Below, one piece after another: positions 246 through 11,307 of a stretch of DNA of 34,154 nucleotides. This DNA is from Chloroflexota bacterium (GTDB lineage Bacteria > Chloroflexota > Dehalococcoidia > JACQUO01). The notes beneath the pieces were generated by a model, which saw only the letters and a program-made list of their open reading frames with translations, did not search any database and was not told where the DNA came from. The translations under genes and the position numbers were made by a program. Location: positions 1 through 34,154 of the forward strand of contig JACQUO010000012.1 in the NCBI GenBank assembly GCA_016210205.1. The letters are read 5' to 3'. How positions within the stretch are numbered: the first letter of the stretch is position 1; each line of letters begins with the position of its first letter.

Positions 246-1631
246 TTATGCTGCGGGCAGGGGCCGGCAGGCGGCCACGAAGCGCTGCGCCAGTTGGGGA
301 TGGGTGCCGAAGTGCAGGTGCACATAGGAGGCCAGGAGATGGCCCCGGGAGAACCCCTCGCGGCGGCGGACGGGGGAGAGCAGCTGGTAGGCTCGCTCCG
401 GGCCGGGGGACTCCAGGTCAGACCAGTGGAACTCATGGCCCCGCAGCCGCAGGCCCAGCGGCACCAGGAAGTTCTCCTTGATGGCCTCCATCTCCACATA
501 GGCCAGCTTGAGGCGGCGGCTGGCATCGAAGCGGGCCACCCCCGGCGCCAGCCCCACCATGGAGTGGAGCTTCTCGCCGTCGTGGAGGCCCTGGCAGAGA
601 TACATAAGCCCGCCGCACTCGCCGTAGAGGGGCAGGCCGTCGCCGTGGGCGCGGCGCAAAGCCCAGCGCATGGCGGTGTTGGCCGAGAGGGCCGGGGCGT
701 AAAGCTCCGGAAAGCCCCCGCCGATATAGACCCCCCCAGTGTCGGCGGGCAAGTCCCGGTCCCGCAGGGGGCTGAAGGGGACAATCCGGGCCCCATGGGC
801 CTCCAGGAGGTCCAGATTGTCCTGGTAGTAGAAGGTGAAGGCCTCGTCCTGGGCCACGGCGATGACGGCCCGCGTGGGGGCCGCCTCCTGGGGGAACAGC
901 CTTGGCTCGTAGGACGGCAGGGGCGGCGCCTCCCGGGCCAGGCCCTGGAGACCCCAGGTGTTCACCGTCTCCGCCACCTGGGCCGTCAGCCGCTCCATGA
1001 AGCCCTCCAGCGCCCCCCGCTCGGCGGCGGGTATCAGCCCCAGGTGGCGCTCCGGCAGGGTCAGCTCCGGGTTGCGGTTGAGGAACCCCAGCACCCGCAG
1101 CCCCGTCCGGGCTCGGACGGCCTGGGTCACCCAGCGCAGGTGCTGGGGGCTGCCGGTGTTGTTGATTAGCACTCCCGCCAGGGGCAGCTCGGGGTCGTAG
1201 GTGTGGAAGCCATGGACCAGGGCACCCGCGCTGGCGGCCATCTTGCCCGCGTTCAGGGCCAGCACCACCGGGGCGCGCAGCAGCTTGGCCAGACCCGCCG
1301 TGGAGCCGGCGTCGTCCCCGCCGCCGTGGCCGTCGAAGAGGCCCATGACCCCCTCGATGAGGGCCAGGTCGGCGCCCTCACAGCCCCGGGCGAAGAGCTC
1401 CAGCACCGCCTCCGGGGTGAGCATCCAGGTGTCCAGGTTGCGGCAGGGCCGGCCGCTGGCCAGGGTCAGATAAGAGGGGTCGATGTAGTCCGGGCCAGCC
1501 TTGAAGGTCTGCACCTTCACCCCGCGCCGAACCAGGGCGGCGGCCAGCCCCGCCACCAGGGTGGTCTTGCCCACCCCGGAGGACGGCCCGGCTATCACCA
1601 CCCGCGGTATCTTGAGACCCTCTATCTTCAT
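246..1631 (-). CDS. cobB: Cobyrinic acid a,c-diamide synthase (CobB/CbiA)
   Basis: This enzyme performs glutamine- and ATP-dependent amidation of the a and c carboxylates of the corrin ring, in the cytoplasm. The 461-residue length is normal for the family. The N-terminal P-loop-type domain carries GPSSGVGKTT at residues 15-24. The C-terminal class I glutaminase domain carries YGECGG with the nucleophile Cys339, and a GHEFHWS block typical of the family follows. The ATG start overlaps the cobU stop as ATGA, so translation is probably coupled. It is the last gene of the riboswitch-led cobalamin operon. Presence of cobB together with cobQ means the organism amidates the ring itself and does not only remodel finished cobinamide. 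The genes for ring synthesis and the corrinoid adenosyltransferase are not in this window. Confidence 0.95.
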   Translation of the reverse strand: MKIEGLKIPRVVIAGPSSGVGKTTLVAGLAAALVRRGVKVQTFKAGPDYIDPSYLTLASGRPCRNLDTWMLTPEAVLELFARGCEGADLALIEGVMGLFDGHGGGDDAGSTAGLAKLLRAPVVLALNAGKMAASAGALVHGFHTYDPELPLAGVLINNTGSPQHLRWVTQAVRARTGLRVLGFLNRNPELTLPERHLGLIPAAERGALEGFMERLTAQVAETVNTWGLQGLAREAPPLPSYEPRLFPQEAAPTRAVIAVAQDEAFTFYYQDNLDLLEAHGARIVPFSPLRDRDLPADTGGVYIGGGFPELYAPALSANTAMRWALRRAHGDGLPLYGECGGLMYLCQGLHDGEKLHSMVGLAPGVARFDASRRLKLAYVEMEAIKENFLVPLGLRLRGHEFHWSDLESPGPERAYQLLSPVRRREGFSRGHLLASYVHLHFGTHPQLAQRFVAACRPLPAA

Positions 1632-2167
1632 GGAAGCGGCGGTCCTTTGATAGTCATGGGTATGCCCGCCACGGTGAGGATGACCCGATGGGCGCGCTGG
1701 GCCAGCCGCTGGTTGGCAGCCCCCAGGGCGTCGCGATAGGCCCGCCCCAGGGGATAGGGAGGCACCAGGCCCAAGCCCACCTCGTTGGAGACCACCAAGA
1801 AATGGGCCGAGCTTCTCTCCAGAGTCGTCAGGAGGGAGTCCATCTCCTCCTGCACCCGCGCCAGGGAGCCGGGGTCGCCCTCCCCCAGGGCGTTGGCCAC
1901 CAGGAAGGAGAGGCAGTCGATGACCACCGCCCGGGCCTCTCCCTGCTCCTGGGCGAGCCTGGCCCCCAGGCCGAGGGGGGACTCCATGGTGCGCCAGCCT
2001 GGGGGGCGCGCCTCTCGGTGCTTGGCGATGCGCTCGGCCATCTCGGCGTCGCCGGCCTGGGCCGTGGCCACGAAGAGCGCCGGGCCAGGCAGCCGGGTGG
2101 CCAGCTCCACCGCCAGCCGGCTCTTGCCGCTGCGGGCCCCGCCTAGAATCAGAGTAATCTCAGCCAC
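1628..2167 (-). CDS. cobU: Adenosylcobinamide kinase / adenosylcobinamide-phosphate guanylyltransferase
   Basis: This bifunctional enzyme phosphorylates adenosylcobinamide and transfers GMP to it, giving AdoCbi-GDP for CobS. It is 179 residues with the GTG start at 2165-2167, close to the usual length of about 180. That start has a GGGAGGG ribosome site just upstream; the much longer open frame to 2392 is only read-through antisense to cobQ coding sequence and is not used. The P-loop GGARSGKS is at residues 9-16, and His50 in AKHREARP matches the guanylylated histidine of the family. LSFLVANAL and the SNEVGLGLVP block are also characteristic. It overlaps cobQ by 8 bases and cobB by 4. Confidence 0.93.
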   Translation of the reverse strand: MAEITLILGGARSGKSRLAVELATRLPGPALFVATAQAGDAEMAERIAKHREARPPGWRTMESPLGLGARLAQEQGEARAVVIDCLSFLVANALGEGDPGSLARVQEEMDSLLTTLERSSAHFLVVSNEVGLGLVPPYPLGRAYRDALGAANQRLAQRAHRVILTVAGIPMTIKGPPLP

Positions 2168-3692
2168 GGGCCGGCCCTCCCTGGGGCAGGCCGCAGACGG
2201 CCTTGAGCCGCTCCATGTCCAGATGCTGCCGCAGCAGCGCCGCCAGGCGATCGAAGCCCTCCTCCAGAGAATGGGTGTCACGAGGGGCATCATCCCCTGC
2301 TGGCAGCTGGCGCCCCAGCGCGGCCAGAAAGGCCTGGCGGAAGGGGGCGCTGTCGAAGAGGCCGTGGATGTAGGTGCCCAGGATGCGGCCATCCGCGGAG
2401 AGGGTGCCGTCGTCGTAGTCCGCCGGGCCCTGGGGGGTCTGAGTGATGCGGAAGGCCGCGGCGGCGCTGGGGCCCTCGGTCTGCCCCATGTGAATCTCGT
2501 AGCCGGCCACGGGCAGGCCCCGGCAGCCGGCGAGCATCCCCGCCTCCGCCGCCACCAGACCCTGGACCTGGACGGTGCGCTTCTCGCGCTCGAAGCGGGT
2601 GGCCACGGGGAGGAGGCCCAGGCCGGGGGCAGAGGCGGCCTCCGACTCCACCCGCAGGGGGTCTTCGATGCGCTCCCCCAGCATCTGATAGCCGCCGCAG
2701 ATGCCCAGGACGCGCGCCCCGCCCTGCGCTTGCGCGGCGATGGCCTGGGCCAGCCCGCTTTGCCGCAGGAAATCCAGGTCGGCCATAGTGCTCTTGGTGC
2801 CGGGGAGGATAATCAGCTTGGGGTCGCCCAGCTCCCGCAGCGAGGACACATAGCGGAGGTGCACCCCCGGCTCCCGCTGCAGTGGCTCGAAGTCGGTGGA
2901 GTTGCTGATGCGGGGGAAGCGAATCACGGCGATGTCGATTAGCCCGGCTCCGTCCCCTCGGCCCGCCTCCAGATAAACCGAGTCCTCCTCAGGCAGCATG
3001 AGCGTCCGGTCGTAGGGGACGACCCCCAGGACGGGGAGGCCGGTGCGCTCCTCCAGCATGGCCAGGCCGGGCTGGAGGATGGAGAGGTCGCCCCGGAACT
3101 TGTTGATGATGAAACCCTTGACCAACCCCCGTTCTTCGGGCTCTAGGAGGGCCAGGGTGCCGACTAGAGAGGCGAAGACGCCCCCTTTGTCGATGTCCCC
3201 CACCAGGAGCACCGGGGCCTGGGCCAGGCGGGCGATGCGCATGTTCACAATCTCGCGCTGGCGCAGGTTAATCTCCGCGGGGCTGCCCGCGCCCTCGATG
3301 ACCACCAGGTCATAGCGGCCCCGCAGGCGCTCCAGGGCCGCTGCAGCCACCTTCAGAAGCTCCGGCGTGTGCTGGTAATACTCCCGGGCCGCCACGGTGA
3401 AGGCGGGCCGGCCCAGCACCACGATTTGGGAACGGGCGTCGGCCTCGGGCTTGATGAGGATGGGGTTCATGTCCACCTGGGGCTCCAGGCCGGCGGCCTG
3501 GGCCTGGACCACCTGGGCGCGGCCCATCTCGCCGCCCTCCCGGGTGACGAAGGAGTTCAGGGCCATATTCTGGGACTTGAAGGGGGCTACCCGCCAGCCC
3601 TCTTGGGCGAAGAGGCGGCACAGCCCCGCCGCCAGAAGGCTCTTGCCCACCCCGGAGCCGGTGCCCTGGAGCATGAGGGCATGGGCAGTCAT
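2160..3692 (-). CDS. cobQ: Cobyric acid synthase (CobQ/CbiP)
   Basis: This enzyme amidates the b, d, e and g carboxylates of adenosylcobyrinic acid a,c-diamide, using glutamine and ATP. It is 510 residues from the ATG at 3690-3692, the normal family length. The frame is open further upstream, but that stretch overlaps cobC and carries no family signature, so I chose the internal ATG. The N-terminal dethiobiotin-synthetase-like domain has QGTGSGVGKS at residues 9-18 and SQNMALNS near 40. The C-terminal glutaminase has GICGGYQMLG with nucleophile Cys332, and TYIHGLFD near the end. The start overlaps the cobC stop as ATGA. Confidence 0.95.
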   Translation of the reverse strand: MTAHALMLQGTGSGVGKSLLAAGLCRLFAQEGWRVAPFKSQNMALNSFVTREGGEMGRAQVVQAQAAGLEPQVDMNPILIKPEADARSQIVVLGRPAFTVAAREYYQHTPELLKVAAAALERLRGRYDLVVIEGAGSPAEINLRQREIVNMRIARLAQAPVLLVGDIDKGGVFASLVGTLALLEPEERGLVKGFIINKFRGDLSILQPGLAMLEERTGLPVLGVVPYDRTLMLPEEDSVYLEAGRGDGAGLIDIAVIRFPRISNSTDFEPLQREPGVHLRYVSSLRELGDPKLIILPGTKSTMADLDFLRQSGLAQAIAAQAQGGARVLGICGGYQMLGERIEDPLRVESEAASAPGLGLLPVATRFEREKRTVQVQGLVAAEAGMLAGCRGLPVAGYEIHMGQTEGPSAAAAFRITQTPQGPADYDDGTLSADGRILGTYIHGLFDSAPFRQAFLAALGRQLPAGDDAPRDTHSLEEGFDRLAALLRQHLDMERLKAVCGLPQGGPARG

Positions 3693-4297
3693 AAGGGGCC
3701 TCCCAGGTGGTTGGTGTCGTTGAGCACGGTGAGGATGGAGCGCTCCCCGAAGCGGTCCAGGATGGAGAGGGAGCCGTTGTCCATGCGCATCCGGCCCCAG
3801 TGCTCCAGCTTGGTCTCCAGGTAGAAAGATATGATGGTAGAGAGCACCACCCGGTGGGCCACGATGAGCACCTTGTCCTCCGGCCCCACCTTCAGCTCCT
3901 TGAGGAAGGGCCACACCCGGCGGGAGAGGTCGATGAGAGACTCCCCGCCCGGCGGGGCGGCCTCGGTGGAGCGGAACCAGGCTCGCTGCACCTCGGCGTA
4001 GCGCTCCTGGACCTGCTTGAAGGTGAGGCCCTCAATCTCCCCGAAGGAAACCTCCCGGAGCTCCCGCCGCGCCTCCACAGAGAGGCCGTGGGGGGCGGCC
4101 AGGATGACGGCGGTCTCATAGGCTCGCATCAGGTCGCTGGAGTAGATGGCGGCCAGCTTCTGGGAGGCCAGCCGGTCCCGGAGCAACTCGGCCTGCTCGC
4201 GTCCCTTGTCGCTCAGGGCGATGTCGCTGTGGCCGTGGAAGCGGCCGTTCTGGTTCCACTCCGTCTCGCCGTGGCGCACCAGGAAGAGCCGTGTCAT
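3689..4297 (-). CDS. cobC: Histidine phosphatase family protein, probable alpha-ribazole phosphatase
   Basis: The 202-residue protein begins MTRLFLVRHGETEWN, with the phosphate-acceptor RHG motif at residues 8-10 (His9). The later conserved block is VLIVAHRVVLST, with its own histidine. It belongs to the phosphoglycerate-mutase-like branch 1 histidine phosphatases. Members of this family act on many phosphomonoesters, so sequence alone does not fix the substrate. Its position between cobD and cobQ, with 4-base ATGA overlaps on both sides, supports removal of the 5' phosphate in the lower-ligand branch (alpha-ribazole-5'-phosphate or adenosylcobalamin-5'-phosphate). Confidence 0.85.
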   Translation of the reverse strand: MTRLFLVRHGETEWNQNGRFHGHSDIALSDKGREQAELLRDRLASQKLAAIYSSDLMRAYETAVILAAPHGLSVEARRELREVSFGEIEGLTFKQVQERYAEVQRAWFRSTEAAPPGGESLIDLSRRVWPFLKELKVGPEDKVLIVAHRVVLSTIISFYLETKLEHWGRMRMDNGSLSILDRFGERSILTVLNDTNHLGGPL

Positions 4298-5385
4298 CTC
4301 CTTATCTCTTTCAGGGCTGCCAGCAGGCGCCGGCAGTCCTCCAGCGAGCGGGGGGAGAGGCGGATGTGTTGCGGCAGGCCGAAGGAGGAGCAGTCCCGCA
4401 CCAGCATGCCCCGCTGGAGAAGCTGGCGTCGCCAGGTTGGGGCATCGCCCACCTTCACCAAGAAGAAGGGCGCCGCCGAGGGTTGGCAGACGAGCCCCAA
4501 GGCTGTGAGTCCCTCCAAAAGATAGGTTTTGGCCTCGGCCAGACGGCGGCGCACCCCTTCCATATAGCCCGCGTCTGCCAGGGCCGCCAGGCCAGCCGCC
4601 TGGGCCGCGGCATTCACGCTCCAGGGCGGCTGAACCTGCCTCAAAGTGGCGATGAGGTCCTCCCGCCCCAGGGCGTAGCCCAGCCGCAGCCCGGCCAGGG
4701 CGTAGTCCTTGGTGAGGGAGCGGACCAGGAGCACATTGCCCCGGTCCAGCAGGCCCAGGGAGCAGGGAGGATGCTCCATGAGGGAGGCATAGGCCTCGTC
4801 CACCACCACCAGGGCGTCGGGCAGGGCGGCGGCCAGCTGCGCCACCGCCTCCCGCCCCAGGTGTTGCCCCGTGGGGTTGTTGGGGTTGCAGAGGAACAGA
4901 GCCTGGGGGCGGAGCCTTTGGGCTGCCTCCAGCGCCCCTGCGATATCGGGGACGAAGCCGTCCTCCTCCCAGGTCCGATGCTCCACGGCCGCGGCCCCGG
5001 CGATGGCGGCGACTACCCGGTACTCCCCGAAGGTGGGGCCCAGGATGAGGACGGGGGCGCCGGGCTGGAGATAGGCCAGGGCCGCCAGCCAGAGCAGCTC
5101 CGCAGAGCCGTTGCCGCAGAGGATGCGGGTGGGGCTTACCCCAAGCCGCTCCCCCAGGCGACCTCGCAGCTCGCCGACCTCGGAGTCGGGGTAGCGTTCT
5201 ATGGTTCGCCCCAGGCCGGCCAGGGCTGGGGCCACCCCCGCCGGCGGCCCGAAGGGATGCGTGTTGGCGGAGAAGTCCACCACCTCCTCGGGGCGCAGGC
5301 CCAGGGCGGCCAGCTCCGCGTAGTCGGGGCCGCCGTGTACCGCCCGCTTCAGGCGTAATACCTCGGGCCTAGGCCGCAAGGACAT
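4294..5385 (-). CDS. cobD: L-threonine-O-3-phosphate decarboxylase (CobD, Salmonella nomenclature)
   Basis: This is a PLP enzyme of aspartate aminotransferase fold type I that makes (R)-1-aminopropan-2-ol O-2-phosphate, the linker CbiB attaches to cobyric acid. The 363 residues include DFSANTHPFGPP near 37, CNPNNPTG near 166, VVVDEAYA near 194, and SLTKDYALAGLR with the predicted PLP lysine Lys226. The sequence is close to histidinol-phosphate aminotransferase (HisC); the DFSANxxPxGPP opening and the operon position favour CobD. The ATG start overlaps the cbiB end by 17 bases, and its stop overlaps the cobC start as ATGA. Its cofactor could come from the PdxS/PdxT pair encoded upstream in the window. 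Confidence 0.9.
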   Translation of the reverse strand: MSLRPRPEVLRLKRAVHGGPDYAELAALGLRPEEVVDFSANTHPFGPPAGVAPALAGLGRTIERYPDSEVGELRGRLGERLGVSPTRILCGNGSAELLWLAALAYLQPGAPVLILGPTFGEYRVVAAIAGAAAVEHRTWEEDGFVPDIAGALEAAQRLRPQALFLCNPNNPTGQHLGREAVAQLAAALPDALVVVDEAYASLMEHPPCSLGLLDRGNVLLVRSLTKDYALAGLRLGYALGREDLIATLRQVQPPWSVNAAAQAAGLAALADAGYMEGVRRRLAEAKTYLLEGLTALGLVCQPSAAPFFLVKVGDAPTWRRQLLQRGMLVRDCSSFGLPQHIRLSPRSLEDCRRLLAALKEIRR

Positions 5386-6313
5386 AGCGCACCCCCAGGA
5401 TGACGAAGCAAAGGCCGAACCACGCCAGGGCGGCGGTCTGCACCAGCCGCACTGCCTGGCCGATGGCGCGGGCCTCCAAGGGCAGGCGCTCCTCCCCCAG
5501 CCGATAGTGGCCGGCCTTCTCCAGCCGCACCCCCAGGGCCCCCGCGGCGGCGGCCATGGTCCAGCCGCCGTTGGGGCTGGCGGTGCGGCCCTGGTCGCGC
5601 CTCATGGTTCGCCAGGCCCCCGGGGCGTCCAGCCGGGTCAGGTAGGCCGCGGCCACCAGCAGCAGGGCCGCCAGGCGCGCCGGCAGGTAGTTGGCGGCAT
5701 CATCCAGGCGGGCCGCCGCTTTGCCCAGGTATTCATACTGGCCCCGGTAGCCCACCGAGGCGTCCAGGGTGTTGATGGCCCGATAGGCCACGGCCCCGGG
5801 CACCCCCAAAATCAGGAAGAAGGCCAGGGGGGCCACGAAGCTGTCCGTGGTGTTCTCCGCCAGGGACTCCACCGCCGCCGAGACCAGCAGGGGCGGCCCC
5901 AGGGCCGCGGTGTCCCGCCCCACCAGGGCCCGAAGCTCCTCCCGGGCCCGGCCCAGGTCGCCTCCCCGCAGCGCTCGCTCCACCCGCCGGCCGGCCTGCC
6001 GCAGCGCCCGCAGGGAGAAGCTGCCTTTCAGGAGGTAGGCGGCCACGATTACATAGAGGGGGATGGCAGCCCCCCGCAGGTATGTTAGCAGGAAGTGTGC
6101 CCCCAGGGCAAAGAGGGCTACCGTAGCCAATGTGCCCCCCAACCCCCACAAGAAAGGGAGCGCGCGCCCCCGCCTGGGCCCGGGCCGCTCCCAGAGGGCG
6201 ATGGCCCACCCCATCCACACCGTGGGATGGAGGAGGGACGGCGGCTCTCCCAGGAGCCAGTCCCAGGCCAGGGCCAGGGCCAGGATGGCTAGGGCTTCCA
6301 CGGGACCCTCCAT
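5369..6313 (-). CDS. cbiB: Adenosylcobinamide-phosphate synthase (CbiB), integral membrane protein
   Basis: This membrane enzyme condenses adenosylcobyric acid with aminopropanol phosphate. The 314-residue protein has several hydrophobic segments, and the family's opening signature LLGEPPSLLHPTVWMGW lies near residues 20-36. SLAENTTDSFVAPLAFF near 148-164 and SPNGGWTMAA near 244 are also characteristic. I list the ATG start at 6311-6313. A GTG four codons further in (6299-6301) has GGAGGG just before it and is an alternative. The gene overlaps cobS by 25 bases and cobD by 17. Confidence 0.92.
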   Translation of the reverse strand: MEGPVEALAILALALAWDWLLGEPPSLLHPTVWMGWAIALWERPGPRRGRALPFLWGLGGTLATVALFALGAHFLLTYLRGAAIPLYVIVAAYLLKGSFSLRALRQAGRRVERALRGGDLGRAREELRALVGRDTAALGPPLLVSAAVESLAENTTDSFVAPLAFFLILGVPGAVAYRAINTLDASVGYRGQYEYLGKAAARLDDAANYLPARLAALLLVAAAYLTRLDAPGAWRTMRRDQGRTASPNGGWTMAAAAGALGVRLEKAGHYRLGEERLPLEARAIGQAVRLVQTAALAWFGLCFVILGVRYVLAA

Positions 6314-7056
6314 AAAAAAGGCAGGGAGGCTACCGCTAGGGGCAGGAGCGCCAGGGCCAGGGCCTCCACCAGCTCGTTCATGGCCCCGTAGCAGTCGCCG
6401 GTGAGGCCCCCCAGCATCCTGTTCAAATAAAGCCCCAGCCCCAGGGTCAGGGCCCCGGCGGCCAGCAGCAGGGCCGCCGCCCCAGACCCCGCCAGCGCCA
6501 GGCCGGCGGCCCCCACGAACAGGGTGGCGGGGAGCAGGTGCCAGGCGCGCGCCCCCTCTTTGAAGGGGCGGCCCTGCCCCTGGCTGCGAGCGTAGGGCAG
6601 GGCCACTACCGCCAGGGCCATGGCCCAGCGGCCCAGGGCCGGCGCCATCGCCAGGGTGGCGAACCTGAGAACGGGAGGGGTGCTGGCCAGGGCGGCGAAC
6701 TTGACCAGAATCAGGGCCATCCCCCCGGCGGCCCCCACGGCCCCCACCCGGGGGTCCCGCATGATGGCCAGGCGCTCCTCCGGGCTGTGGCCCCCGGCCA
6801 GGGCGTCGCAGGTGTCCATGAAGCCGTCCAGGTGCATGGCCCCGGTGAGGAGCGCCAGGGCGGCTAGCACCAGGGCGCTGGCCAGGAGCGGCGGGAAGGC
6901 CAGGGACAGCAGGGCGTCGGCCCCGGCCAGGGCCAGCCCCAGCAGCAGACCCACCAGGGGGAAGTAGGCCAGGGAGTGCCCCAGCTCCCGGGGGCCGGTG
7001 GCTGGCCCCGGCAGGGGGATGGCGGTGAGAAAACGCCAGGCGGCCAGAAACGCCAC
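6289..7056 (-). CDS. cobS: Adenosylcobinamide-GDP ribazoletransferase (cobalamin synthase CobS)
   Basis: This integral membrane enzyme joins AdoCbi-GDP and alpha-ribazole(-5'-phosphate), the last assembly step. The 255-residue protein begins AFLAAWRFLTAIPLPGP, which is typical. The metal-site signature GAMHLDGFMDTCDALAG is at residues 72-88. A RDPRVGAVGAAGG block follows near 115, with alternating hydrophobic segments after it. The start is GTG at 7054-7056, with AGGAG six bases upstream. Eighteen bases separate it from the cobT stop. Confidence 0.93.
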   Translation of the reverse strand: MAFLAAWRFLTAIPLPGPATGPRELGHSLAYFPLVGLLLGLALAGADALLSLAFPPLLASALVLAALALLTGAMHLDGFMDTCDALAGGHSPEERLAIMRDPRVGAVGAAGGMALILVKFAALASTPPVLRFATLAMAPALGRWAMALAVVALPYARSQGQGRPFKEGARAWHLLPATLFVGAAGLALAGSGAAALLLAAGALTLGLGLYLNRMLGGLTGDCYGAMNELVEALALALLPLAVASLPFLWRVPWKP

Positions 7057-7074: not shown

Positions 7075-8139
7075 CTACTCCGGGTTGGGGCCAGCCTCGG
7101 AGACCCCGGCCTCGGCGAAGGTCGCCATCTCGGAGAGGATGCGGGCCGCCGCCTCCACGAAGGTGAAGGCCAGGGCCGCCCCGGTGCCCTCCCCCAGGCG
7201 CAAATCCAGGTTCATTAGGGGTTTGAGCCCCAGATGCTCCAGCATCAGCCGGTGCCCCGGCTCCACCGACACATGGGAGGCAATGAAGTAGTCCTTGGCT
7301 TGGGGGCAGAGGCCGGCGGCGATGAGGGCCGCCGCCCCGGAGATGAAGCCGTCGATGACCACGGGGAGGCGATGGGCCGCCCCCGCCAGCATCACCCCCG
7401 CCAGGCCGCCGATTTCGAAGCCGCCCACCTTGGACAGGACCCCCAGGGCATCGGCGGGATTGGGCCGGTTGATGGCCAGGGCCTGCTCGATGACGGCAAT
7501 CTTGTGGGCCAGGCGGGCCTCGTCGATGCCCGTCCCCCGTCCAGCGAGCCGCGCCACGGGTAGGCCGGTGATGGCGGCGGCGATGGCCGCCGAGGGCGTG
7601 GTGTTGGCGATGCCCATATCGCCGGTGGCCACGGCGTCCAGACCCTGGGGCAGCTCCCCCTCCACCAGCCGTATCCCCGTTTCAATGGCGGCCAGGGCCT
7701 GCTCCCGGCTCATGGCAGGGCCGTGGGCCAAATCGGCGCTCCCCGGGGCCACCGGGTGGCTCCTAAGCTGGGGGTGCTGGGGCAGGGGGGAAGCCACCCC
7801 CAGGTCGGCGACGATGACCCTCGCCCCCACCTGCCGGGCCAGGACATTGATGGCCGCGCCCCCCCGCAGGAAGTTCAGCACCATCTGGGCCGTGACCGCC
7901 TGGGGATAGGCGCTCACCCCCTCCGCGGCCACGCCGTGGTCGGCGGCCAGGGTGAAGACGGCCTTGTGGCGGATTTGAGGCTTCTCCTTGCCCTGGATGC
8001 CCGCCAGCTGCACCGACAGCTCCTCCAGCCGTCCCAGGCTGCCCGGGGGCTTGGTCAGGGTGTCCTGCCGCGCCCGTGCCGCGGCCATGGCCTTCTGGTC
8101 CAGGGGCCCGATAGCGTTCAGGGTGTGTTGCAGGCTCAT
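7075..8139 (-). CDS. cobT: Nicotinate-nucleotide:dimethylbenzimidazole phosphoribosyltransferase
   Basis: CobT activates the lower ligand base by transferring phosphoribose from nicotinate mononucleotide to dimethylbenzimidazole or a related base, giving alpha-ribazole phosphate. I chose the ATG at 8137-8139 because GGAG sits eight bases upstream and it gives 354 residues, the family's usual size; an in-frame TTG at 8193 would add 18 residues without family character. TKPPGSLGRLEEL is near the N-terminus, TLAADHGVAAEGVSAYP is central, and LRLGEGTGAALA near the C-terminus carries the catalytic glutamate Glu317. It is the first intact gene after the B12 riboswitch and its terminator. Confidence 0.94.
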   Translation of the reverse strand: MSLQHTLNAIGPLDQKAMAAARARQDTLTKPPGSLGRLEELSVQLAGIQGKEKPQIRHKAVFTLAADHGVAAEGVSAYPQAVTAQMVLNFLRGGAAINVLARQVGARVIVADLGVASPLPQHPQLRSHPVAPGSADLAHGPAMSREQALAAIETGIRLVEGELPQGLDAVATGDMGIANTTPSAAIAAAITGLPVARLAGRGTGIDEARLAHKIAVIEQALAINRPNPADALGVLSKVGGFEIGGLAGVMLAGAAHRLPVVIDGFISGAAALIAAGLCPQAKDYFIASHVSVEPGHRLMLEHLGLKPLMNLDLRLGEGTGAALAFTFVEAAARILSEMATFAEAGVSEAGPNPE

Positions 8140-8189: not shown

Positions 8190-8305
8190 TCAAAGGGGCC
8201 GCTGGGCCAGGCTGATGGTGCGGCCGGCGTCGTTGGCCGGGGGTAGGGGCGGGGCGCAGGCGGCCAGGAGGAAGGCCAGGCGAGGAAAACCGGCAGGAGC
8301 TTGAG
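8190..8305 (-). pseudogene. Decayed lipoprotein N-terminus resembling cobalamin-binding protein BtuF
   Basis: Between the riboswitch terminator and cobT, the minus strand carries GGGGGAGG followed six bases later by CTC-AAG. This reads as x-K-LLPVFLA and then, after restoring one missing base near 8280, LAFLLAACAPPLPPANDAG and RTISLAQRP before a TGA at 8190-8192. A basic residue, a hydrophobic stretch and an L-A-A-C lipobox make a lipoprotein signal, and the DxAGRTxxLxxRP stretch resembles the start of BtuF/FepB-type periplasmic binding proteins. Start codon lost, frameshift and truncation are the inferred lesions. The fragment is short (under 40 codons), so the family assignment is tentative. 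Confidence 0.45.
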
Positions 8306-8319
8306 GCTTGGCCTCCCCC

Positions 8320-8366
8320 AAAACAGCATCCCCTTGCACCGTCGCAAGGGGATGGAGGACTGTTTT
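8320..8366 (-). terminator. Intrinsic terminator in the cobalamin leader
   Basis: A perfect 11-bp stem, CATCCCCTTGC with GCAAGGGGATG (8327-8337 and 8344-8354), encloses a 6-base loop. In the minus-strand transcript it is followed by CTGTTTT, and AAAACAG upstream can pair with that tail around a small bulge. It lies about 40 bases downstream of the riboswitch aptamer, which fits transcriptional attenuation when B12 is bound. Confidence 0.85.
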
Positions 8367-8404
8367 TCTTTCACTGTCCTTATCCCTTTTCCGCGAAGGA
8401 CTTC

Positions 8405-8535
8405 GGTGGGCCGGGGGCGGCGTCCTGACTTTTCGCCCGAGGGCGAATCACAGTAGCGGGACTGTGCCGGACTTGCACCGGTCTTGCCTTCCATTTGAGC
8501 CTGAGCTTGCGCCCAGGCCCCGCGGCCGTTCGCAT
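8405..8535 (-). promoter_or_regulatory. Cobalamin (adenosylcobalamin) riboswitch
   Basis: Read on the minus strand, the conserved B12-box core GGTGCAAGTCCGG, then CACAGTCCCGCTACTGTGA, is at 8448-8479. It is preceded by GGAA and followed by a short hairpin and AAGTCAGGAC (8422-8431). This order is diagnostic of the cobalamin riboswitch family. The outer boundaries are approximate because the peripheral stems vary. It sits in the leader of the cob operon between the promoter and an intrinsic terminator, so cobT and the seven genes behind it should be repressed when cobalamin is abundant. Confidence 0.93.
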
Positions 8536-8550
8536 TATTAAGTTAGAGGA

Positions 8551-8607: not shown

Positions 8608-9411
8608 CTAGCCCTCCAGGCTCCCCAGCCGGCCCTGCTGGGGCGGGCTGGCGGCGGGAGCGTTCCCCCGCCGGCCCCCCTTGCGGTCCGCGGCAGGCGG
8701 ATGGGGCAGGATGCCCGCCCGGGTCAGCTCGGCCTGGACCCGCTCCCAGATGGCGCGGGCCACCTCCTGGCGGGGCTGGGAGGAGTCCACCACCAGCCAT
8801 CGCTGGGGGTCAGCGGCAGCAAAGTCCAAATACCCCTGGCGCACCCGGCGGTGGAACTCCAACTCCTCTTCCTCGAAGCGGGAAAGGTCGCCGCCCCGCC
8901 GTTTGCGCGCCAGGGCCTGGGATGGCTCCAGGTCCAGGAGGACGATGAGGTCTGGCTCCAGCCCCCCGGTGGCGATGTGGTTCAAGTGGCGGAGCATATC
9001 CAACTCCAGGCCGCGGGCGTAGCCTTGATACGCCAGGGTGGAGTGGGTGAAGCGGTCGCAGAGGATGGTGGTGCCCTTGGCCAGGGCCGGGCGAATCACC
9101 TCCTGCACCAGCTGGGCCCGAGAGGCCAGGAAAAGGAAAAGCTCCGAGGGGACGGAGAGGGGAACCCACAGCTCTTTGGAGGCCAACTGGCTGGCGGGCT
9201 GGGGCGGCACCAGGGAGCGGCCCCAGGTGCTCACCAGGGCCTGGCGGGGCAACGAGACAACCGGGCGCAGGTACTCCCCCAGGGCGGTGCCGCCGGGCTC
9301 CCGCAGGAACTTGCTGCGGTAGCCATGCTGGGAGAGGAGGCCGTAGAGATGGCGGATGTGGGTGGACTTGCCGGCGCCCTCCCCGCCCTCGAAGACGATG
9401 AACAGGCCCAA
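8608..9411 (-). CDS. tmk: Thymidylate kinase
   Basis: This enzyme phosphorylates dTMP to dTDP in the cytoplasm. It begins with the P-loop FEGGEGAGKST (about residues 7-17), followed by LREPGGTALGEYLR, DRFTHSTLAYQGYARG, and a basic lid region around RKRRGGDLSRFE. At 267 residues it is longer than the usual 200-215. One extra stretch of about 22-30 residues (near 57-85, rich in S, P, Q and L) lies between the REPGGT motif and the LFLFLASRAQLV helix. A second is a basic, Pro/Gly-rich tail after about residue 230. The start is TTG at 9409-9411 with AGGGGGT upstream. It is the last gene of the pdxS-led run; the cob promoter lies just past its end. Confidence 0.92.
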   Translation of the reverse strand: MGLFIVFEGGEGAGKSTHIRHLYGLLSQHGYRSKFLREPGGTALGEYLRPVVSLPRQALVSTWGRSLVPPQPASQLASKELWVPLSVPSELFLFLASRAQLVQEVIRPALAKGTTILCDRFTHSTLAYQGYARGLELDMLRHLNHIATGGLEPDLIVLLDLEPSQALARKRRGGDLSRFEEEELEFHRRVRQGYLDFAAADPQRWLVVDSSQPRQEVARAIWERVQAELTRAGILPHPPAADRKGGRRGNAPAASPPQQGRLGSLEG

Positions 9412-9463
9412 ATTCTACCCCCTGGAGTTGGTCTGACAGCCTGGCCCGCCAGGGCCGGGGATG

Positions 9464-9739
9464 CTAGTCCGAATGCACCAGGCGCTCTTGCTCCATCCAG
9501 GAGCGGAAGAACCACTCCCGGTCGCTCTGCTCGTTCTCCTTGGAGCCCTTGGTGAAGGTGGAGGCGTTCTGCACCGGGGCCTTGGAGGCGTGCACCGTGT
9601 CCCGGGCCCGGTCCACCAGCAGGGCCACCCCGCAGAAGCCGCAGATGGACTTGGTCACCAGGGGCGAGTGCTCCGCCAGGCTCCATTCGATGGTGTTCTG
9701 ACAGTGGGGACACTGGAAGGTGTAGGCAGTTGTTGACAT
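9464..9739 (-). CDS. Small zinc-ribbon protein of unknown function
   Basis: This 91-residue protein has two CxxC pairs, CPHC at 10-13 and CGFC at 33-36, which form a likely treble-clef or zinc-ribbon site. A charged C-terminal half follows with no further motif. The ATG has AAAGGAT upstream. It lies 52 bases before tmk and 35 bases after the AAA/R3H ATPase gene, so it is probably cotranscribed with them. I do not recognise a named family; a nucleic-acid or protein-binding role would be a guess. Confidence 0.75.
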   Translation of the reverse strand: MSTTAYTFQCPHCQNTIEWSLAEHSPLVTKSICGFCGVALLVDRARDTVHASKAPVQNASTFTKGSKENEQSDREWFFRSWMEQERLVHSD

Positions 9740-9774
9740 AATTATCCTTTTGCCCTTTCTACTCTGATTTAGCT

Positions 9775-11307
9775 CTAGTCTGGCCGAAAGATGCGCACCC
9801 GGCGGAACGGCTCTTCCCCGGCGCTCCCGGAGTCCAGCTTGTGGCGCTCCGCCATGAGGTGCTGGAGGCGGCGGATGTAGGCCTTCTGGGGGCTCAGCTC
9901 CACGCTACCGTTGTGCTCCAGCACCTGAGAGATGGCCTCCTGGGCCTCCACCAGGGCGGGGCCCACTTCGCCCTGGGCGGGCCCGCTGCCGTAGATGGTC
10001 AGCAGCCCCTGCTGGATTTGCCCCGGGGTGTTGCCCTTGATGACGAAGACCGGCTTCCCGGTGTCCTCGGCAGTGCGCACCCGCTGAGGCTTGCGCCGAT
10101 AGTAGTTGCGGGACGTGAGGAGGAGGTCCGCCTGCCCCAGGTCATCCACCACCTCTACGGGGACGCCCAAAGTCCGGGCGGCCTGCTCCAGCCGGGAGCG
10201 GTTGATGCCGTAGGAGTAGATACGTTTGGGCTTTCCCTGGGAGAAAGCGGGCTCCTTCCGATGCTGCACCGGCGACAGGAGGGAGGGCGACTGCTCCCGC
10301 TGGATTTTACCCTCCTTGTCCACCCAGCGCACCTCCGCGGGCACCGTCTGCCCCCGGAGAGTGGCGTCCACCAGGGCGGCCACATCGGCGTGCACCGCCA
10401 CCTTCTCCCAGTTCTGTATCTCCACCACTGTGGGGAAGGTGGGGGGGGCCTTGCGCTCCAGGACCGTCTTCTGGGTGCCGCGGCGCCGGGCCTCCTCGTC
10501 CCCCAGAATTACCGCCTGGATGCCCCCCACCAGGTCCGAGAGGGTGGGGTTCATGATGAGGTTCTCCAGGGTATTGCCGTGGGCGGTGGCCACCAACTGC
10601 ACCCCCCGCTCGGCGATGGTGCGGGCGGCGGCGGCCTCCAGCTCCGTGCCGATTTCGTCGATGACAATCACCTCTGGCATATGGTTCTCCACCGCCTCAA
10701 TCATCACAGCGTGCTGATGCGCGGGCTCGGAGACCTGCATGCGCCGGGCATGGCCGATGGCGGGATGAGGGATGTCCCCGTCCCCGGCAATCTCGTTGGA
10801 GGTGTCCACAATCACCACCCGCTTCTTCATGTCATCGGCCAGGACCCGGGCCACCTCCCGCAGCATGGTGGTCTTGCCCACCCCGGGCCGTCCCAGAAGG
10901 AGCAGGCTCCGGCCCGACTCTACCAAGTCCTGGATGATGCGGATGGTACCGAAGACCGCCCGCCCCACCCGGCAGGTGAGGCCCACGATGCGCCCCTCCC
11001 GATTGCGGATGGCGGAGATGCGGTGCAGCGTGCGCTCGATGCCGGCCCGGTTGTCCCCGCTGAAGGCCGAGAGGCGGGTCACCATATACTCGATGTCCTC
11101 GCGGGTGACTTCCCGAGGGCTGAGGACCACCTCCTGGTGGGGGAAGCGGGCCTCGGGCGCCCGCCCCAGGTCCATGACCACCTCCAGGAGCTCGTGGCGG
11201 TCGGAACGCTCATAGAGGGGCTCGGCGATGTGGGGCGGCAGTGCCCCCAGCAGGGCCTCCAGGTCGTCGGTGATGACCTGGGTGAAGCTCTCTTCGGGCA
11301 AGCTCAA
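9775..11307 (-). CDS. SpoIIIAA-like AAA ATPase with C-terminal R3H domain (Ycf45-like)
   Basis: The 510-residue protein has an N-terminal segment, then an ATPase domain with Walker [10 protein letters not shown] at 139-147 and Walker [11 protein letters not shown] (Asp217, Glu218), followed by [11 protein letters not shown]. This block resembles the sporulation ATPase SpoIIIAA and the Ycf45 proteins of cyanobacteria and plastids. The C-terminus contains RRLQH (Arg479-His483), the R-x3-H signature of a single-stranded nucleic-acid-binding R3H domain. The middle (about 350-450) is a separate module with no motif I can name. The TTG start overlaps the stop of the preceding gene as TTGA and has GGGGGAGAG upstream. 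The cellular role is unknown; coupling of ATPase and R3H suggests an RNA or ssDNA substrate. Confidence 0.85.

Follow-up and report, generated by a model that had tools for sequence, protein, structure and literature searches.

The segment 8305-8190 on the minus strand of the window (the whole stretch of 34,154 nucleotides of contig JACQUO010000012.1 from a Chloroflexota bacterium) is very probably a pseudogene, namely the 5' stub of a btuF-type gene. This gene would have encoded a corrinoid-binding lipoprotein (Peripla_BP_2) and would have stood first in a corrinoid operon under riboswitch control. The stub matches the N-termini of BtuF proteins, intact btuF genes occupy the same place in relatives, and neither btuF nor btuC gave a match in the assembled genome. 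Overall, the analysis supports a sequence-only reading of this locus, which had proposed a btuF remnant between the riboswitch and cobT.

Layout of the locus

All B12 genes of the window are carried by the minus strand, and the locus is composed of the following features.

8398..8539, minus strand: cobalamin riboswitch aptamer (RF00174; 46.3 bits, gathering threshold 31.5, full model 1-189)
8319..8354, minus strand: expression platform of the riboswitch, terminator-like hairpin (stem 8354-8327, then CTGTTTT)
8312..8319, minus strand: Shine-Dalgarno-like GGGGGAGG of the former btuF
8280..8305, minus strand: btuF remnant, part 1 (CTC replaces the start codon; first half of the lipoprotein signal, LKLLPVFL)
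8190..8279, minus strand: btuF remnant, part 2, in another frame (lipobox LAAC with Cys at 8258-8256; DAGRTISLAQRP with DAGR at 8231-8220; stop TGA at 8192-8190)
7075..8139, minus strand: cobT, intact, nicotinate-nucleotide--dimethylbenzimidazole phosphoribosyltransferase (PF02277; TIGR03160, 467.6 bits, cut-off 319.3)
246..7056, minus strand: rest of the B12 gene run after cobT, assigned by Pfam as in the next seven lines
6289-7056, minus strand: cobS
5369-6313, minus strand: cbiB
4294-5385, minus strand: cobD-type aminotransferase
3689-4297, minus strand: cobC-type phosphatase
2160-3914, minus strand: cbiP (longest open frame)
1628-2392, minus strand: cobU
246-1631, minus strand: cbiA

Neither btuC nor btuD was detected by Pfam in the B12 gene run of the window. 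A separate open frame of 91 aa without a Pfam match lies at 9464-9739 (minus strand), between tmk and the next gene.

Reading of the stub

The ribosome site and the near-start codon CTC pointed out from the sequence alone are both present: GGGGGAGG at 8319-8312 is followed, six bases on, by CTC AAG at 8305, and a start codon is lacking. The first frame (8305-8280) reads CTC AAG CTC CTG CCG GTT TTC CTC, translated as LKLLPVFL, while the second frame (8279-8190), shifted by one base, reads LAFLLAACAPPLPPANDAGRTISLAQRPL and a stop codon. The two frames together provide a lipoprotein signal with a lipobox Cys near the N-terminus (LAFLLAAC), in which the one-base frame change falls in the hydrophobic stretch. 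The DxGRxxxLxxxP strand before the first lobe is found as well, as DAGRTISLAQRP could be aligned to 17 intact relatives. On the other hand, the two-lobed Peripla_BP_2 domain (approximately 235 residues) is absent from the stub, which stops right after RPL, and the C-terminus of btuF could not be recognised by eye in the 50 bases between the stub stop and cobT. The stub is a remnant and not a working member of the BtuF-type family (PF01497). The third-position GC contents of its two frames (88% and 93%) are similar to those of cobT (91%) and cobS (92%), which suggests that the decay was recent.

A search profile was derived from 17 intact BtuF-type N-termini. In the relatives, the corresponding genes lie upstream of cobT, in its vicinity, or next to a riboswitch. 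Part 2 of the stub was the best of the 941 six-frame pieces of the whole window with 9.3 bits and an E-value of 0.06, and the match covered both the lipobox and the DxGR motif. When the 258-base interval was shuffled 10,000 times with its dinucleotides preserved, this score was never reached (best, 7.4 bits). When every one-base join was allowed, the real sequence scored 15.9 bits and none of 300 shuffles did so (best, 9.2 bits); the join chosen by the profile was exactly the position at which the sequence-only reading had placed a missing base. The claims of a lipoprotein signal broken by a single base and of a BtuF-like DxAGRTxxLxxRP stretch ended by a stop were borne out, and the alignment of the fragment to BtuF N-termini was significant. 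In the regions upstream of cobT at 111 loci, the same profile ranked 13 genuine btuF genes first and the stub next. Taken alone, 9.3 bits would be weak, given the E-value of 0.06 over the window, and the case also rests on the position, strand, and order of the stub.

The frameshift is read from the signal-peptide pattern and not forced by a stop codon, because the frame carrying the lipobox extends upstream without a stop as far as an in-frame TTG at 8321. The segment may also be read as a stretch of 43 codons, from TTG at 8321 to TGA at 8190, that is translated into a small lipoprotein or a leader peptide and was kept for its own use after most of btuF had been deleted. That frame has AAGGGG ahead of the TTG and contains the lipobox LAAC, but its signal peptide would be poor (GEAKPQAPAGFPR followed by a seven-residue hydrophobic run) and its putative ribosome site sits inside the terminator stem, whereas the hydrophobic half that it lacks is encoded in the other frame, straight after a better ribosome site. 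Moreover, no piece of equal score was found ahead of cobT in the examined loci lacking btuF. We thus regard a retained short peptide as very unlikely, and as slightly less likely still in the particular form of a btuF-derived peptide that the cell goes on making under control of the B12 riboswitch for some new purpose, for instance to couple translation into cobT. Chance resemblance in the spacer, or a part of the riboswitch expression platform, is very improbable: the piece is short (37 residues) and the spacer very GC-rich, but the dinucleotide-preserving shuffles fall short of its score, its third-position GC is that of coding sequence, and the fold of 8190-8320 is no better than those of shuffles (z = -0.47).

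Comparison with relatives

Intact genes for Peripla_BP_2 (BtuF-type) lipoproteins were found between the riboswitch and cobT, where the sequence-only reading had located the lost binding-protein gene, in L033/L114, L116/L149, L117/L148, L049, L131, L136, and L151; the relatives compared are related to the window genome at the level of the same class. The cobT proteins most similar to that of the window (69% identity) were those of the Dehalococcoidia/Chloroflexi MAGs L033/L114, L034/L115, and L116, in which the btuF-type sequence ends 13-39 bases upstream of cobT (in L034 and L115 the gene is truncated by the end of the contig or locus).

The run of the Dehalococcoidia locus L033 (JACWAE010000024.1) comprises a riboswitch (8802-8941), a terminator hairpin, a ribosome site, btuF (9053-9964; PF01497, E = 2e-41), cobT (from 10001), cobS, and cobU; further on come a diphthamide-synthase-like gene, btuC (PF01032), and a gene for an ABC ATPase, regarded as btuD. 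The cobalamin riboswitch, the terminator hairpin, the position of the binding protein, cobT, and cobS are shared with the window. In contrast to the window, where btuF is a stub and btuC/btuD are absent, L033 possesses an intact btuF (304 aa) and btuC/btuD downstream of cobU, whereas cbiB, cobD, cobC, cbiP, and cbiA distinguish the window from L033. Another Chloroflexi MAG, L063 (JAMCYS010000086.1), bears an AdoCbl riboswitch, btuF, btuC, btuD, cobT, cobS, cbiA, cbiB, cobD, cbiP, and cobU in this order. L063 and the window agree in the position of the switch and in nearly all of the late B12 genes after cobT, but the full set of btuFCD transporter genes lies in L063 exactly where the window has the stub. 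Variants were seen in L066 and L109, with btuF, btuC, and cobA ahead of cobT and, in L109, also an ABC ATPase there.

The proposal that a riboswitch-led btuFCD operon had been deleted is matched by the arrangement in L063, albeit the stretch lost here may have been btuF only, because the Dehalococcoidia whose cobT is closest to that of the window have btuF alone ahead of cobT and btuC/btuD further downstream. Likewise, cobT is now the first intact gene after the riboswitch as had been noted, but the switch gained no new target, because cobT already belongs to the same riboswitch-led run in relatives.

The locus L042 (JAMCWX010000024.1) resembles the window in having a riboswitch directly over cobT-cobS-cbiB-cobD-cobC-cbiP-cobU in the same order, but differs in that its spacer contains no recognisable btuF remnant; therefore, clean absence of btuF occurs too. 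In L143, the space between the riboswitch and cobT holds a gene (G007:C118, approximately 397-939) whose P-loop start suggests cobA/cobO, and the first gene after the switch therefore varies among relatives. In another Chloroflexi MAG, this place is taken by a small open frame (L044:2551-2754) whose product, about 66 aa long, probably has two membrane helices. Separately, two genomes carried two cobT copies each with identical scores, about 30 kb apart (G097:C1 605763/636774 and G210:C1 831477/860801), which suggests a duplicated corrinoid region.

In the cobT phylogeny (100 rows), the window cobT, on an isolated branch of ambiguous placement, did not group beside a btuF-bearing lineage; the tree was therefore left out of the evidence. 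A search of 100 relatives with the leader DNA recovered matches to cobT and the riboswitch core, with a few short, weak matches to the spacer (E about 1e-4 to 1e-3). The binding protein of the relatives scored below the cut-off of the NCBIfam BtuF equivalog (104.5 vs 234 bits in L033), and corrinoid binding by this protein is putative, being assigned from gene context. We infer that the lost gene of the window encoded a protein that bound corrinoids.

Riboswitch and terminator

The score of the window riboswitch lies within the range of the riboswitches ahead of btuF-cobT in relatives (32-49 bits). The region of the strong terminator-like hairpin (8310-8400) folds with a z-score of -3.37, and in L033, L049, and L052 btuF is likewise preceded by a hairpin of the CCCC..GGGG kind with a run of T after it. 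The window's GGGGGAGG corresponds to AAGGAGG ahead of btuF in L033. A hairpin suspected just 5' of cobT had a fold no better than shuffles (z = -1.11). As far as can be judged from sequence, the riboswitch probably still works and likely represses the gene run, because the terminator has been kept and the aptamer scores much as it does in relatives whose operons are intact. A cobalamin riboswitch directly on cobT is already known, for example in Sporomusa ovata (PMC9600662).

B12 genes of the genome

The genome to which the window belongs is assembled into 34 contigs (1.42 Mb, 87.5% complete). No match at E <= 1 was detected in this 87.5% complete assembly for Peripla_BP_2 (PF01497), the FecCD permease (PF01032), CbiZ (PF01955), or the ECF S-component (PF12822); at this level of completeness, btuFCD elsewhere in the genome could have been missed. 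Among the 15 relatives searched alongside, 13 possessed PF01497, and a PF01032 match was obtained in all 15, which in two of them fell short of the cut-off. Since the assembly is a draft in 34 contigs, an intact btuF might in principle have been collapsed by a sequencing or assembly error, but such an error would have to account for the loss of about 780 bases, of the start codon, and of one further base, and btuC is missing as well, so that we consider it very improbable.

The contig C34 carries a de novo cluster with a CbiX-CbiC fusion, CbtB, CbtA, CbiD, CbiG, and four tetrapyrrole methylases, and the second riboswitch of the genome (7586-7444) lies beside it. The first gene of this cluster, next to that riboswitch, combines CbiX and CbiC in one open frame of 334 aa (L153:6304-7305). 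As predicted from gene content, the C34 cluster and the cobT-cobS-cbiB-cobD-cobC-cbiP-cobU-cbiA run of the window together constitute a large part of the anaerobic B12 pathway.

The cobamide salvage cluster of Dehalogenimonas comprises btuFCD, cobA, cbiZ, cbiB, cobD, and cobTSCU, and thus groups genes for uptake and late assembly (PMC13390414). Dehalogenimonas presumably belongs to the same class as the bacterium of the window. Its strains are mostly missing the de novo precorrin genes, with uptake kept (PMC13390414), and the window genome shows the opposite combination. Uptake was apparently abandoned in the window's lineage, perhaps because the genome would make B12 de novo.

History of the locus

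We propose that the ancestral riboswitch-controlled operon started with btuF, possibly with btuFCD. A large deletion would have taken everything from just past the N-terminal DxGR...RP motif to near cobT, roughly 260 codons as judged from relatives, and the start codon of the residual stub, as well as a single base of its signal sequence, would have disappeared, in whatever order these events took place. The riboswitch and the terminator hairpin would have been kept, so that the first intact gene behind the switch is now cobT. When B12 is plentiful, the riboswitch presumably still represses cobT and the late B12 genes that follow.

Implications

That a gene is lost while its riboswitch stays in place is to be expected, and the locus is a well-attested gene remnant that adds one more example of an ordinary kind of evolutionary event. 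The titles found in a limited literature search included no paper about this locus. The best-studied Dehalococcoidia mostly rely on imported corrinoids. In a lineage near Dehalococcoidia, the stub is a visible fossil of an apparent change from vitamin B12 import to vitamin B12 synthesis, and it illustrates that a riboswitch and its terminator can outlive the first gene under their control.
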